Of a DNA stretch of 45,862 nt, positions 26,376 through 32,322 are shown in pieces. The DNA is from Acidimicrobiia bacterium. GTDB taxonomy: Bacteria > Actinomycetota > Acidimicrobiia > Spongiisociales > ZC4RG35. The position numbers and the translations under genes were made by a program. How positions within the stretch are numbered: the first letter of the stretch is position 1; the number at the start of each line of letters is the position of its first letter. The stretch is taken from positions 1 to 45,862 of the forward strand of contig JAICRU010000014.1 in the NCBI GenBank assembly GCA_025937235.1, written 5' to 3'. The notes beneath the pieces are model-generated. The model saw only the letters and a list, made by a program, of their open reading frames with translations. It was not told where the DNA came from and did not search any database.

Positions 26376-28384
26376 TGCTGGCGTTGCTCGGATCGGCCGG
26401 CGTCGCCGCTGCCCTCGCCGGATCGGTCCTCCTCGTGATCAGGGGGATTGGGCTCGCCCGAGGAGGTGAGGGCGACCTCCGTGGGCCGGCCAAGCTGGTG
26501 TTGGCCGGAGCCGTCGTCTCCATGGTCTCGATGCAGATCGCGCTGCTCACCGACGACTTCAGCCTGGCCTACGTCGCCAACCACCACGCCACCGCGACGC
26601 CCTTCCCCTTCGACGTCGCCACCGCCTGGGCGGCTCTGGAGGGCTCGATAATCCTCTGGGCCCTCGTCCTCGCCGTGTTCACCTGGGTGGTGGCGCGCCG
26701 CAGCGCCGACCGTCTCGGCGCGGCGGCGTTGGCCGTGATGGGCGGGGTCGGGATCTTCTTCTTCGGTCTCATGCTGACCGTGGCCAACCCCTTCGAGGTC
26801 TGCGTCGATGCCCTGACCACTGGTTGTGCGGCCTCCAGCCCGTGGCCGTTCGCCGCAATCGAGACACCCGTCGATGGACCGGGCCCCAACCCCCTGCTGC
26901 AGAACCACTTTCTGATGGCAGTTCACCCGCCGGTCCTCTACATCGGGTATGTCGGGCTGACCGTGCCGTTTGCCTATGCCATCGGTGCCTTGGCATTGGG
27001 CGTCCCCGGCCCGGATTGGCTCCGACGGAGCCAGCGGGCCACCCTGGTTGCCTGGTCGTTCCTCACTCTGGGCATCCTGCTCGGGGGATGGTGGGCATAT
27101 GAGGTGCTCTCCTGGGGCGGCTACTGGGCGTGGGATCCGGTGGAGAACGCCTCGCTGATGCCGTGGTTGGCCGCCACCGCGTTCATCCACTCCGGACTGG
27201 TGCAGCAGCGCCGCGGCATGCTCCAGGCCTGGAACTTCGTGCTCGTGATAAGCGCCTTCGCCCTCACCATCCTGGGGACGTTCCTCACCCGGTCGGGGAC
27301 GATCAACTCGGTCCACTCCTTCACTCAATCGGCGATCGGTCCCGCTCTGCTCGGGTTCCTGGTCCTCGTGCTCGCCGGCTCCTTCACACTGTTCGCGATG
27401 CGTTCGCACCTGGTGTCCTCATCACCGCGCATCGAGACGTTCGTCTCCCGCGAGGGGACGTTTCTCCTGAACAACCTCCTCCTGACGGTTTATGCGTTCA
27501 TCGTCCTCATCGGCACCACCTATCCACTCCTCCTCGAAGCCTTCACGGGGACCCAGGTGGGTGTCGGCGAGCCTTTCTTCAACCGTCTCGCCGTGCCCCT
27601 CTCTTTCATGCTCCTGCTCACAATGGGGTTCGGTCCAGTGACCCCGTGGCGGGGGGCGCCGGCCGGGCTGCTCTGGCGGCGGCTGCGGGGGCCGGCCATC
27701 GTCGCTCTCGCCACCGGGCTCGTGGTGGCACTCACCGTGACCCGGGTCGCATGGGTGATCTTGGCCATCGTCCTCGGTGTCTGGGTGGCCGCCGCCATCG
27801 TCGGGCTCCTCGTCGAGCTGGCCGCGAAGAGATCGGCGAAATCGGGAAGGTCCCTGTACGGGGAGATGAAGACCGTAGTAGGTAATGAACAGCCCTTCTG
27901 GGCCGGTCAGGTGAGCCACATCGGGGTGGCCCTCGTCGCCGTCGGGATCGCCTTCGCCGCCAATCTCCCCCTTCACACCGAGGTGGAGCTCGCCCCTGGC
28001 GAATCGGTGGTGTTCGCCGGGTACACCCTCACCTACGAGGCGCCTTTTCGTCGTGAGGAGCCCAACCGCCTCGTGCAGGGAGTTCGGGTGCAGGTCGGCC
28101 GGGGTGACCGGGTGATCACCACCCTGGAGCCGCGGGCCAACTTCTACGACAACGAGATGGGCGGGATCATCACACCGGCGGTGATGAGCCGGGCGGGGGG
28201 CGACCTGTACCTGACGATGCGGGACCTCGATTCCGAGACCGTGCAGCTCGGGCTCGACACCTCACCGATGATCTGGCTGCTGTGGCTGGGTGGATTGGTG
28301 ACCGCGGCCGGGGGCTTCTGGTCCCTGGCAGCCCGACGCAGGGACCGCGTCATGACTTCGCCCAAGGTCATGGCCGATGTCTGA
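26375..28384 (+). CDS. ccmF: Cytochrome c heme lyase subunit CcmF
   Basis: A 669-residue polytopic membrane protein that joins heme from CcmE to apocytochrome c. The WWD motif around residues 236-260 reads GGWWAYEVLSWGGYWAWDPVEN in two adjacent parts, and the conserved TFLTRSGT segment follows. His residues at NHHATA, AVHPPVLY and FIHSG fit heme-ligand positions. Length is slightly above that of E. coli CcmF. The ATG at 26375 overlaps the ccmE stop; longer in-frame sequence upstream lies inside ccmE. Confidence 0.94.
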   Translation: MLALLGSAGVAAALAGSVLLVIRGIGLARGGEGDLRGPAKLVLAGAVVSMVSMQIALLTDDFSLAYVANHHATATPFPFDVATAWAALEGSIILWALVLAVFTWVVARRSADRLGAAALAVMGGVGIFFFGLMLTVANPFEVCVDALTTGCAASSPWPFAAIETPVDGPGPNPLLQNHFLMAVHPPVLYIGYVGLTVPFAYAIGALALGVPGPDWLRRSQRATLVAWSFLTLGILLGGWWAYEVLSWGGYWAWDPVENASLMPWLAATAFIHSGLVQQRRGMLQAWNFVLVISAFALTILGTFLTRSGTINSVHSFTQSAIGPALLGFLVLVLAGSFTLFAMRSHLVSSSPRIETFVSREGTFLLNNLLLTVYAFIVLIGTTYPLLLEAFTGTQVGVGEPFFNRLAVPLSFMLLLTMGFGPVTPWRGAPAGLLWRRLRGPAIVALATGLVVALTVTRVAWVILAIVLGVWVAAAIVGLLVELAAKRSAKSGRSLYGEMKTVVGNEQPFWAGQVSHIGVALVAVGIAFAANLPLHTEVELAPGESVVFAGYTLTYEAPFRREEPNRLVQGVRVQVGRGDRVITTLEPRANFYDNEMGGIITPAVMSRAGGDLYLTMRDLDSETVQLGLDTSPMIWLLWLGGLVTAAGGFWSLAARRRDRVMTSPKVMADV

Positions 28385-29381
28385 ACGCGTCCGCGGCATC
28401 GCATCGGTCTCGGTCATCGTGGGGATGGCCATCGTCCTTTTCTTCTTGGTGTCGACCCGCCCGGCCACGGTCGACCGTGTCGAGGAGATTGGATCCCGTA
28501 TCAAATGCCCGGTCTGCCAGGGCGAGTCCATAGCCAACTCTCCATCGCCGATGGCCGAGGACATGATGGACCTCGTCGCGGAGCGCGTCTCGTCGGGGGT
28601 GCCCGACGGAGAGATCGTCGAGGAGATTCTCGGCTCGTACTCCGGCGCGGTGCTTCTCGACCCCCCCGCTTCGGGCAGCACCCTGGCGTTATGGCTGGCG
28701 CCTGCCGCCGCCCTGGTCCTGGGGCTGGCAGTGATCCTCTGGTGGCGGCGTCATCCCGGCCAGGACTGGGAAGAGCCTGCGGCTCCAGGCAGGAGCTGGG
28801 CAAGGCTCATCATCGGCGGGGTGGTTCTCGTCCTCGTTTTCGCCGGGATCGTGGTCTTCGCCGCCAACTCCCTCCAGGACCGCCCCGCCGCGGCGGCAGG
28901 CGCAGCCAACCTCGGTGAGCAGGATCTCTCCGATGTCAGCAACGAGACGATGGAGGCGGTGATCGCCGCCAACGAGGACGATCCGCAGATCAACGGGATG
29001 CGGCTGGCGCTGGCCGAGCGGTATTTCGAAGCAGCGGACTATCGCTCGGCCTTTCCCCACTATCTCGAGGTAGCCGACCACCCGGGTGCATCCGACCCCG
29101 AGGCGATCACAGCCTTGGTCCGCCTGGGATGGATAGCATTCGATGGCAACGGCGAGGTCGAGACCGCCATTCGTCTCATCGACGAGGCATTGGCCATCGA
29201 CCCCGGCTCCCAGCTTGCCCTGTATGTCCGGGCGCGCGTCCTCTGGTGCGCCTCGGCCGAGACGGAGCAGGCGGTAGAGGCCTTCGAAGAGTTGCTCACC
29301 CAGCCCGACCTCGCGCCTGAGACCCGAGCCCAGATCGAGTCGGACCTCGATGCGGCCCGGGCCGGCGAGGACTGCCCATGA
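28377..29381 (+). CDS. CcmH-CcmI fusion (apocytochrome thiol reductase with TPR region)
   Basis: A 334-residue protein. Residues 1-30 hold a membrane anchor. The CcmH/CcmL domain follows with the redox pair Cys44/Cys47 in IKCPVCQGESIANS. Two more membrane segments occur at about 103-122 and 140-162. The C-terminal half is a TPR region (YFEAADYRSAFPHYLEVADHPG and following repeats) of the CcmI type, which captures apocytochrome c. E. coli also carries a CcmH-CcmI fusion. It overlaps ccmF by eight bases and the thioredoxin-like gene by four. Confidence 0.9.
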   Translation: MSERVRGIASVSVIVGMAIVLFFLVSTRPATVDRVEEIGSRIKCPVCQGESIANSPSPMAEDMMDLVAERVSSGVPDGEIVEEILGSYSGAVLLDPPASGSTLALWLAPAAALVLGLAVILWWRRHPGQDWEEPAAPGRSWARLIIGGVVLVLVFAGIVVFAANSLQDRPAAAAGAANLGEQDLSDVSNETMEAVIAANEDDPQINGMRLALAERYFEAADYRSAFPHYLEVADHPGASDPEAITALVRLGWIAFDGNGEVETAIRLIDEALAIDPGSQLALYVRARVLWCASAETEQAVEAFEELLTQPDLAPETRAQIESDLDAARAGEDCP

Positions 29382-29971
29382 AAGGGAATGGCCTGCGCTG
29401 GACGGGTCTCACCGTGGTGGCGGCAACGGTGATTCTGGCCGTGGTGCTCGCCAGCAGATTCGGCTCGGACCCCGGTTTGGTGGACTCTCCCCTTCTCGGG
29501 ATGCCCGCGCCCGAGTTCGACCTGCCCGGTCTCGATGGCTCCGTCGGCACCGAGCTGTCCGCCCTCAGGGGTGAGATCGTTGTGCTCAATTTCTTCGCCT
29601 CCTGGTGCCTGGAGTGCCGGGACGAGCACGATGACCTGGTTGCCGCCTCAGAGTCCTTTGCCGGGCAGGGTGTTCGATTCGTCCAGATCGCATATCAGGA
29701 GCGAGCAGAGGAGACCCTCTCCTATCTCGATCAGGCCGGGTCCTCTGCCGCCACCCTTTATCTTGCCGATCCCGGAAGCCGGACCGCGATCGCCTACGGC
29801 GTCTTCGGAATCCCCGAGACCTTCTTCATCGATGCCGACGGCACCGTGGTGGGAAAGATCATCGGAGAATCCGATGCGCTCGTCCTCGGATCAACGATCG
29901 ACGCGATAAGGGAAGGAGAGCAACCGGGACAGCAGATCACCGGGGACACCCAGCAGCGTCCGGAGAGTTGA
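29378..29971 (+). CDS. ccmG: Thioredoxin-like CcmG/ResA protein
   Basis: A 197-residue membrane-anchored thiol oxidoreductase. The membrane segment is at residues 10-27, and the thioredoxin fold has the active site FFASWCLECRDEH (Cys77, Cys80). Glu79 and the cis-Pro loop FGIPETFFID are typical of CcmG/ResA, which keep apocytochrome c reduced. It ends the ccm operon, coupled to the preceding gene by ATGA. It could equally be called TlpA/ResA-like; the operon context decides for ccmG. Confidence 0.9.
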   Translation: MKGNGLRWTGLTVVAATVILAVVLASRFGSDPGLVDSPLLGMPAPEFDLPGLDGSVGTELSALRGEIVVLNFFASWCLECRDEHDDLVAASESFAGQGVRFVQIAYQERAEETLSYLDQAGSSAATLYLADPGSRTAIAYGVFGIPETFFIDADGTVVGKIIGESDALVLGSTIDAIREGEQPGQQITGDTQQRPES

Positions 29972-30022
29972 CGGTCTTGGAAGGCCAAGTGGCCATGACC
30001 GCAGGTCGGTTCACAGAACCGC

Positions 30023-31420
30023 TCAATCGGGCAGGATCACCTCGAGACTGACCTCGTCGAACGAGGCGGTGTCGATGGCAGCCGAGCCGGTGCCCAGCAG
30101 GTACACCTCGAAGAAACCAAGCAGATAGCGGTCCACGATCGGGATGATTGCGCCGGCCGGTATCGGCCCCTTCCAGCCCAGCCTGGATGCGATCGGTGAC
30201 AACAGCGGCATGCTGAGGAAGTCGGTCTCCGTCGTCCCGTCGACCCCTACCCAGTACGTCGTGGCAGTCGACCGCTCGGCGATACCGCGCAGGATGGCGT
30301 CGTTGTCGGTACCCCGCCAATCATCGGACCTCATGTAGAGGGAAGGCCGCGTAGCGGAGATGGCCAGGGCACGGTCGGGAATCGGCTCCACCCACGGGTC
30401 GAGGCCGAGCACTGCGTCACAACGCTCGTCCTGCAGACAGAATGTGATCGCCGCCCCCCCGCCGGCCTCGTTCCCGTAGACACCGAGTCGGGTCGTGTCG
30501 AAGCTCGAAGCGAGCTCGCCGAACGGGCCATTCGGGCCAGCTTCCATGGCATTTATCACAGTGACGATGTCATCGTTGAGCACCCCGAGCAGAGCCTCGG
30601 TGGACTCGGCGAATACCTCCTCGCCGACGTCCGCCGGATCGGGCAGGGCAGCAGGGTCGTAGGGCACGACCTCCTCATCGGGGAAACGCGTGGTGGCCGC
30701 GATGTAGGTGTGATCGATCGCAACGACGATGAAGCCATTGCTGACCAGGCCCTCTACCTGGTAGACGGCATTGGTGCGAAAGCCGGTCCATCCATGGCTG
30801 TAGACGACAACCGGGAATGTGCCGGGTGCGACCGGCACGGCGGAGTTGGCATGCGAGGAGGTGTAGCCGGTGTGACTGAGGAACCAGCCTGGATACCCCA
30901 TCAGGTTCGAGACCTTCGGCGCCACGACATCCCAGTCCTCGCTCCACGGAATCGGATCGGATTCTCCTGTGGAGAGCGCCGGATACCAGACCTGAGCCAT
31001 GATGCTCCTCCCTGGACCGGGCGTCGGCCCGTAGATCTCCTCGCGCTCGGAGTCGACCAGCTCGAGGCTGACCGTCCCGATGGGCTCGGGACCGGTGGGA
31101 ACAGGGAGCTCAGGCACTGGCAGCGCAAGGGGGAGGATCGCCCCGAGCGCAAGTCCGGCCAGCCCGAACAGGCCGCGGGAGATTCGTCGCGCCCAGTCGA
31201 GCCTTCGCTCCACTGACAACAGGTCCCCGACTGCCAGCCCCAGGGCCGTCAGGTAGACCGGGATCATCTGCCAACGGAGCCCTTCGATCTGCCAATGGGC
31301 AGTGAAGGCGACCAGAAGGAGCCCGGCGGTGATGCCGCGTCGCGTCCGAATCCCGAAGATGGCGGCCCAGGCGACCGCGAACACCTCGGTGAAGATGAGG
31401 AATAGCTCGAAACGCCTCAA
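30023..31420 (-). CDS. PAF-acetylhydrolase-like protein lacking catalytic Ser and His
   Basis: A 465-residue protein. Residues 1-105 contain about four membrane segments. The remainder resembles the platelet-activating-factor acetylhydrolase II family of alpha/beta hydrolases: VWYPA, the oxyanion segment VVVYSHGWTG, IDHTY, and GLDPWVEP with Asp341 at the acid position. The nucleophile elbow, normally GHSFGG, reads GNEAGG, placing Glu318 where Ser should be. The His position, normally followed by DF and PLLSP, reads GTTETDF with Glu398. The remaining fold is intact and there is no stop or shift. It is therefore probably a pseudoenzyme or one with a changed mechanism. It converges on the ccm operon. 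Confidence 0.8.
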   Translation of the reverse strand: MRRFELFLIFTEVFAVAWAAIFGIRTRRGITAGLLLVAFTAHWQIEGLRWQMIPVYLTALGLAVGDLLSVERRLDWARRISRGLFGLAGLALGAILPLALPVPELPVPTGPEPIGTVSLELVDSEREEIYGPTPGPGRSIMAQVWYPALSTGESDPIPWSEDWDVVAPKVSNLMGYPGWFLSHTGYTSSHANSAVPVAPGTFPVVVYSHGWTGFRTNAVYQVEGLVSNGFIVVAIDHTYIAATTRFPDEEVVPYDPAALPDPADVGEEVFAESTEALLGVLNDDIVTVINAMEAGPNGPFGELASSFDTTRLGVYGNEAGGGAAITFCLQDERCDAVLGLDPWVEPIPDRALAISATRPSLYMRSDDWRGTDNDAILRGIAERSTATTYWVGVDGTTETDFLSMPLLSPIASRLGWKGPIPAGAIIPIVDRYLLGFFEVYLLGTGSAAIDTASFDEVSLEVILPD

Positions 31421-31446
31421 AGCCGGTGGAGCCTAAGACCGCCGGG

Positions 31447-31807
31447 TCAGCTATGGCACTTGGCTGCCGGGGTACGGTCAAGGACTCGGGTGCCCTGGTG
31501 GAACACGAGCTGCCAACCGCGTCCGCGGCGCACCTAAACGGAGGACATGCGTGTCTCCCGGCTTCGGCACCCACAGCCTGGATGTGACCAGGGCGACTTC
31601 CGGGGTTATCTCCTTGACGTCGAAGCTCTTGATCCTGACCACGCCCGGTGTCTGCTGGAGCATTCTCTGGATCATCATGTCCTTGGTGTAGACCCGCCCG
31701 CTGCTCCCGAGTTCGACGAAGTCCGGGTGGAGCAATGGGATCACCGCCTGAGGTGACCCCTGGCCCAGACCATTCCTCACCTGGTCGGGACTGGAAGGCG
31801 AGGCCAC
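31447..31807 (-). pseudogene. Frameshifted NTF2-like (DUF4440) protein
   Basis: The upstream part, in the frame ending beyond the shift, reads LLHPDFVELGSSGRVYTKDM and later VALVTSRLWVPK, the DUF4440/SnoaL-like pattern. After HVLR near 31540 the expected end appears in another frame: RRGRGWQLVFHQGTRVL, ending in a TGA at 31447-31449. The two halves cannot be read without a frame change of one base near 31530-31540, and the first frame runs out of family sequence there. It is either a recent pseudogene or an assembly error. The start is uncertain (GTG at 31807 or 31780). In this family such proteins are small soluble cone-fold domains of varied function. Confidence 0.7.
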
Positions 31808-31863
31808 CAGGCCGTGGCCGGGTGCAACGGAGTCGGCGAATCCCTCGTTACACTCGGTTCCCC

Positions 31864-32322
31864 GTGAAATCGACCCTGTACTTCGCCTACGCATCGTTCC
31901 TCGATCCAGACAGGATCGCCGCCGTCGCCCCGGGCGCAACCTTCCTTTTCACCGCCCACTTCCCGGAGACCAGGTTGGTCTTCATCGATTCGGATGAGGC
32001 AAAGGGTCTCCCATCCCTCCTGGCAGAATCGGGGCACACCGTATGGGGAGGGATCTTCCAAGTGCCCGACGACGAGTTGGCTGCCCTGACCGACGCCGAG
32101 GAATCAGAGGGACGCGTGGCCGGCTGGGATGTCAAGGCTGTCGACCGCGAAGGCAACAAGCACGACTGCCTCACGTTCGTGGCGAAAGCCTCACCCAATG
32201 GCGAGCACCGGCCGGGTCTCAGCCACCTCGAGTCGATGATCAAGGGGGCACGGCACTGGTCGCTCCCCGCCGGGTGGGTATTGGGCCTGGAGGATCTGGG
32301 CGAAGATCCGCTGTTCTCCTGA
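31864..32322 (+). CDS. Gamma-glutamylcyclotransferase-like protein
   Basis: A 152-residue protein from GTG at 31864. The opening STLYFAYASFLDPDRI matches the glycine-loop of the GGCT/AIG2 fold (usually YFAYGSN). WGGIFQVPDDELAALTDAEE follows, with Glu80 the likely catalytic acid. The end (LPAGWVLGLEDL) is longer than the shortest members. Family enzymes turn gamma-glutamyl amines into 5-oxoproline. The GS-to-AS change in the loop (YAS instead of YGS) leaves activity uncertain. Confidence 0.78.
   Translation: MKSTLYFAYASFLDPDRIAAVAPGATFLFTAHFPETRLVFIDSDEAKGLPSLLAESGHTVWGGIFQVPDDELAALTDAEESEGRVAGWDVKAVDREGNKHDCLTFVAKASPNGEHRPGLSHLESMIKGARHWSLPAGWVLGLEDLGEDPLFS

Follow-up and report, generated by a model that had tools for sequence, protein, structure and literature searches.

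Human Lp-PLA2 (plasma PAF acetylhydrolase; PDB 3d59) belongs to the PAF-acetylhydrolase isoform II family (PF03403) and carries a catalytic triad of Ser273, Asp296 and His351 (PMC8764669, PMC6973114). Around this triad, Gln352 contacts the substrate, Leu159 belongs to the sn-2 pocket (PMC8764669) and Leu371 is a ligand contact (PMC6973114). Several α/β hydrolases from other families act without catalysis. ABHD5/CGI-58, a lipase co-activator that lacks the serine nucleophile, has a non-hydrolytic role in lipid metabolism (PMC5314347), and the NDRG family and neuroligins are non-catalytic α/β hydrolases in which triad residues are absent or substituted (PMC7022630, PMC5943944). In principle, the bacterial protein presented here would work like all of these, but ABHD5/CGI-58 is eukaryotic and from a different family. 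The NDRG proteins and neuroligins are also different families; the parts of those sources available describe the NDRG3 pocket as blocked by helices and report no Glu/Asp/Glu set. Searches of the open-access literature, partly with narrow phrases, returned no report of a pseudoenzyme in the PAF-acetylhydrolase II family, and narrow phrase searches of the same literature returned none of an α/β hydrolase whose nucleophile elbow carries a Glu. To our knowledge, no α/β hydrolase with a Glu nucleophile has been described. Non-catalytic α/β hydrolases are thus already known, and the Glu/Asp/Glu variant described below, together with the recurrence of such losses, is unreported as far as we searched.

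The window, the whole stretch of 45,862 nucleotides of Acidimicrobiia DNA that was analyzed, is one contig of a 3.1 Mb genome. It carries a hydrolase-like open reading frame of 465 codons with a TTG start and no internal stops (Table 1), intact as the initial annotation had read it. Relatives begin at the matching position with an MRxxE motif, using TTG, GTG or ATG, which supports the TTG start. The product scored 53 bits against PF03403 (curated cut-off, 20; E = 2.6e-14), placing it in the PAF-acetylhydrolase isoform II family, and a profile built from 35 relatives for comparison with the PDB matched human Lp-PLA2 (E = 8.4e-31). The best solved relative was a bacterial esterase (5yae), aligned over residues 103–452 of the window protein. 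Unlike the window protein, 5yae has the nucleophile Ser and the His, and its matched chain begins beyond the membrane region. No second PF03403-matching gene was found in the window genome. A second match in genome G001 (C79) was considered as a paralogue and rejected, as it represents a single locus split by a contig end, with identical sequence at both contig ends.

The profile alignment placed Glu318, Asp341 and Glu398 on Ser273, Asp296 and His351 of Lp-PLA2, with the motifs GHSFGG, LDAWMFP and GSVHQNF aligned at these positions. Where an active esterase has Ser-Asp-His, the window protein has Glu318-Asp341-Glu398. The HGxxG oxyanion segment is present as H209-G-W-T-G, and the protein also keeps the Trp that follows the acid and the Cys328/Cys334 pair. 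The window protein and Lp-PLA2 are therefore alike in the homologous domain, the Asp, the oxyanion loop, this Trp and the pocket layout, whereas the equivalents of Ser273, His351 and His272 are replaced in the window protein, which additionally has about four N-terminal membrane helices. The initial annotation had named both Glu substitutions, with residue numbers that proved exact, and the retention of Asp341 and the oxyanion segment that it described is seen in the alignment. It overlooked the replacement of His317 by Asn, further changes in the pocket, the intact orthologues found at this locus in relatives and the different triad losses in two more genera.

Table 1 Features of the hydrolase-like gene and its conserved neighbors (coordinates within the window).
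Feature	Coordinates	Strand	Basis
PAF-acetylhydrolase II-like protein, catalytic Ser and His both Glu	30023..31420	-	ORF, Pfam PF03403, PDB profile match
N-terminal membrane region, about four helices, with EGxRWQ loop	31118..31420	-	low-confidence model, hydropathy, charges, conservation
Oxyanion segment H209-G-W-T-G213, retained	30782..30796	-	alignment
Asn217, not in intact family members (Leu159 of Lp-PLA2, sn-2 pocket)	30770..30772	-	alignment, PMC8764669
Asn317, in place of the His that all intact family members have (His272 of Lp-PLA2)	30470..30472	-	alignment
Glu318 in GNEAGG, nucleophile position (Ser273 of Lp-PLA2)	30467..30469	-	alignment
Asp341 in LDPWVEP, acid retained (Asp296 of Lp-PLA2)	30398..30400	-	alignment
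Glu398 in GTTETDF, catalytic His position (His351 of Lp-PLA2)	30227..30229	-	alignment
Thr399, genus-specific (Gln352 of Lp-PLA2)	30224..30226	-	alignment, PMC8764669
Trp416, genus-specific (Leu371 of Lp-PLA2)	30173..30175	-	alignment, PMC6973114
CcmG/ResA-like thioredoxin, conserved convergent neighbor, orthology marker	29378..29971	+	neighborhood comparison
CcmH/TPR protein, cytochrome c maturation cluster, conserved neighbor	28377..29381	+	neighborhood comparison

An AlphaFold model calculated from the window protein and one relative (L031) was of low confidence (pLDDT of 33.7) and placed helices at residues 2–22, 27–45, 50–68 and 76–99, of which 27–45 fell below the hydropathy cut-off. About four N-terminal helices support the membrane location that had been assigned to the protein at the outset. 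The EGxRWQ loop is conserved in nearly all relatives, Trp50 is invariant in all aligned sequences, and the membrane region as a whole is conserved in both the intact and the inactive forms. Under the positive-inside rule, basic loops lie on the inner side of the membrane. Loops 1 and 3 carry such basic residues (RTRR; ERRLDWARRISR) and would thus lie inside, which suggests that the hydrolase domain lies outside the cell membrane, in which case the EGxRWQ loop would face it.

Of 138 genomes of the order, 51 carry the gene, and almost every genome of the window's family is among them. No relatives of the protein were found among viral contigs, and plasmid records held only distant homologues (<60% identity). 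Glu/Asp/Glu was present in all three examined genomes of the genus, which consists of uncultured Acidimicrobiia, in proteins sharing 78–91% identity, and in no other relative examined. Joint conservation of Glu318 and Glu398 among homologues, on which the initial annotation had made its reading depend, thus holds within the genus (3/3). The Glu318 codon differs between the genomes (GAG in the window, GAA in the other two), and this difference, together with the presence of the pair in three genomes, shows that the pair is neither a product of chance nor an assembly error. All other readable ORFs have Ser at the nucleophile position, with three exceptions. The triad positions read Gly/Asp/Ser in L017 (genome G010, genus g9), Gly/Asn/Ser in L018 (G016, genus g15) and Gly/Asn/Pro in L019 (G026, genus g15). 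L018 and L019 lack the acid, which is Asn, and also the oxyanion HGWTG motif. G010 and G016 each have a second, distant PAF-AH-like gene (L049 and L060, respectively) with Ser/Asp/His present. A further member, L009 (G003), keeps Ser-Asp-His and is otherwise intact, but its oxyanion motif is changed from SHGWTGFR to SHRWSGLG.

Throughout most of the family, and in some members of another family (f5), the hydrolase gene is convergent with the adjoining CcmG-like thioredoxin gene, which is followed by ccmH. Intact members, the window genus and the forms in g9 and g15 all have this neighborhood, apart from L019, beside which no ccmH was recovered, and orthologues beside the ccmH and thioredoxin genes include ones with Ser-Asp-His. 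Given this shared locus, the forms without the triad are orthologous to the intact enzymes and are not stray paralogues; the g9 and g15 forms are the same gene at the same locus, with the catalytic residues lost through other substitutions. Across this Acidimicrobiia family, the PAF-AH-like membrane protein and the cytochrome c maturation genes (28377–31420 in the window) are kept convergent, with no known functional link.

In a protein tree computed with the triad columns left out, the three Glu/Asp/Glu sequences formed one clade nested among intact members, with the intact L004 as sister. The neighboring thioredoxin and CcmH genes likewise put L004 beside the window genus. Forcing all triad losses into one clade was rejected (AU p = 1.8e-7). 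When only g9 and the window genus were forced together, the hydrolase gene did not reject the grouping (AU p = 0.13); the neighbor genes rejected it (AU p = 1.9e-4), which speaks against a single loss common to these two. If the hydrolase gene followed its neighbors, this amounts to three losses. Triad loss thus occurred separately at least twice in any case, and probably three times.

We compared the changes in the window genus with the lipid pocket of Lp-PLA2, taking as pocket those residues described as pocket-lining or ligand-touching (PMC8764669, PMC6973114). A residue counted as genus-specific when it was fixed in the genus and no other family member had it, with the triad-lacking forms set aside. 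Seven of the 11 genus-specific domain residues that could be mapped onto Lp-PLA2 fall in the pocket (173, 217, 317, 318, 398, 399 and 416; hypergeometric p = 5e-6, for a test picked after inspection and with the triad sites included). The same test on intact clades gave p values from 0.02 to 1. The g9 form has Asn217 and Thr399 as in the window genus. This resembles convergence, but the intact L042, from another family of the order, has Asn217 too.

The selective regime bears on whether the gene is simply being lost. Between genus members, dN/dS was 0.11–0.135, inside the 0.08–0.22 spanned by intact pairs, and the root-to-tip length was 0.32–0.35, on a par with the 0.31 of the intact sister. 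Across 24 intact family members, 78 positions are invariant, and of these the three genus members have all changed at 317, 318 and 398 alone; individual intact members deviate at zero to five otherwise invariant positions, never in the triad. Under neutral simulation, both Glu residues survived in three species with a probability of about 0.003 (0.04 at half the synonymous distance). The window protein thus has its triad replaced under purifying selection, as expected of a pseudoenzyme. The early decay of a dying esterase gene is very improbable. Decay does occur nearby, since the DUF4440 gene just upstream (31430–31960, minus strand) is broken in the window, where its N-terminus is altered, its frame is shifted and the original frame contains a stop; it is open in two other species of the genus (L091 and L003). 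However, the hydrolase frame is intact in three species, its evolution is not accelerated, and the only invariant residues lost in all three belong to the active site. Taken together, dN/dS, branch length, the invariant-site pattern, the codon change and the simulation make decay of the hydrolase gene unlikely. It is scarcely credible, moreover, that the protein is still a serine esterase with Ser and His relocated. Ser365, His209 and His237 are invariant, but equally so in members with the normal triad, and a comparison of the three genus members with the family members found no newly fixed Ser, His or Cys, which makes a relocated nucleophile unlikely. From these sequence comparisons, a conserved pseudoenzyme, and not random decay, is well supported; the initial annotation had argued against decay from the double substitution, and purifying selection, the joint retention of Glu318 and Glu398 and the lack of a replacement Ser or His now bear this out.

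We propose, with a probability of about 0.62, that the window protein is a non-hydrolytic, membrane-tethered, extracytoplasmic binding protein with a remodelled acidic pocket. About four N-terminal helices would anchor the PAF-acetylhydrolase-type α/β hydrolase domain on the outer side of the cell membrane. Serine-ester hydrolysis would have been lost on the branch to the genus, through the changes of His317 to Asn, Ser318 to Glu and His398 to Glu, while the fold, the oxyanion loop and the membrane part stayed under normal selection. The lipid pocket would have turned acidic and oxygen-rich, through Asn217, Asn317, Glu318, Asp341, Glu398 and Thr399, and would most likely bind a putative ligand, for example a cation, the headgroup of a cationic lipid or a different polar small molecule. 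The protein may then act through binding at the membrane, as a sensor, a carrier or a partner-activating subunit. Proximity of the carboxylates at 318, 341 and 398 is expected only on the basis of the general Ser/His geometry of α/β hydrolases. A carboxylate pair can itself be catalytic, and thus the loss of all catalysis is not proven. A re-purposed enzyme, with Glu318, Asp341 and Glu398 either coordinating a metal, as the initial annotation had considered, or acting as an acid-acid catalytic pair, for new, non-serine-ester chemistry in the old pocket, is unlikely but deserves consideration: both residues became Glu and stay so across species despite the codon change at 318, the oxyanion segment is kept, and oxygen-bearing residues cluster around the site. 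Against this, narrow phrase searches of the open-access literature yielded no α/β hydrolase with a Glu nucleophile, and the related genera changed the site to Gly, Asn, Ser or Pro, which indicates that the protein can persist without the carboxylate pair. The separate triad losses indicate that catalysis is dispensable in this PAF-AH-like family, and this counts for a scaffold, in which the conserved role would reside in the membrane helices and in the fold as a partner surface, with the old pocket silent. The conservation of the membrane region in intact and inactive forms and the conserved position beside the ccmH and thioredoxin genes would fit such a role. We nevertheless regard it as quite unlikely, as the pocket changes in the genus were concentrated and then fixed, and a silent pocket would need neither. 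A binding protein with a remodelled pocket therefore remains our preferred reading.

The locus provides a clean case in bacteria: its position is conserved, and related genera carry the same orthologous gene either with the triad intact or without it. These orthologues make it possible to test directly why a hydrolase is retained once catalysis goes, and also whether the double-Glu elbow is inert, binds metal or has gained a new catalytic role.
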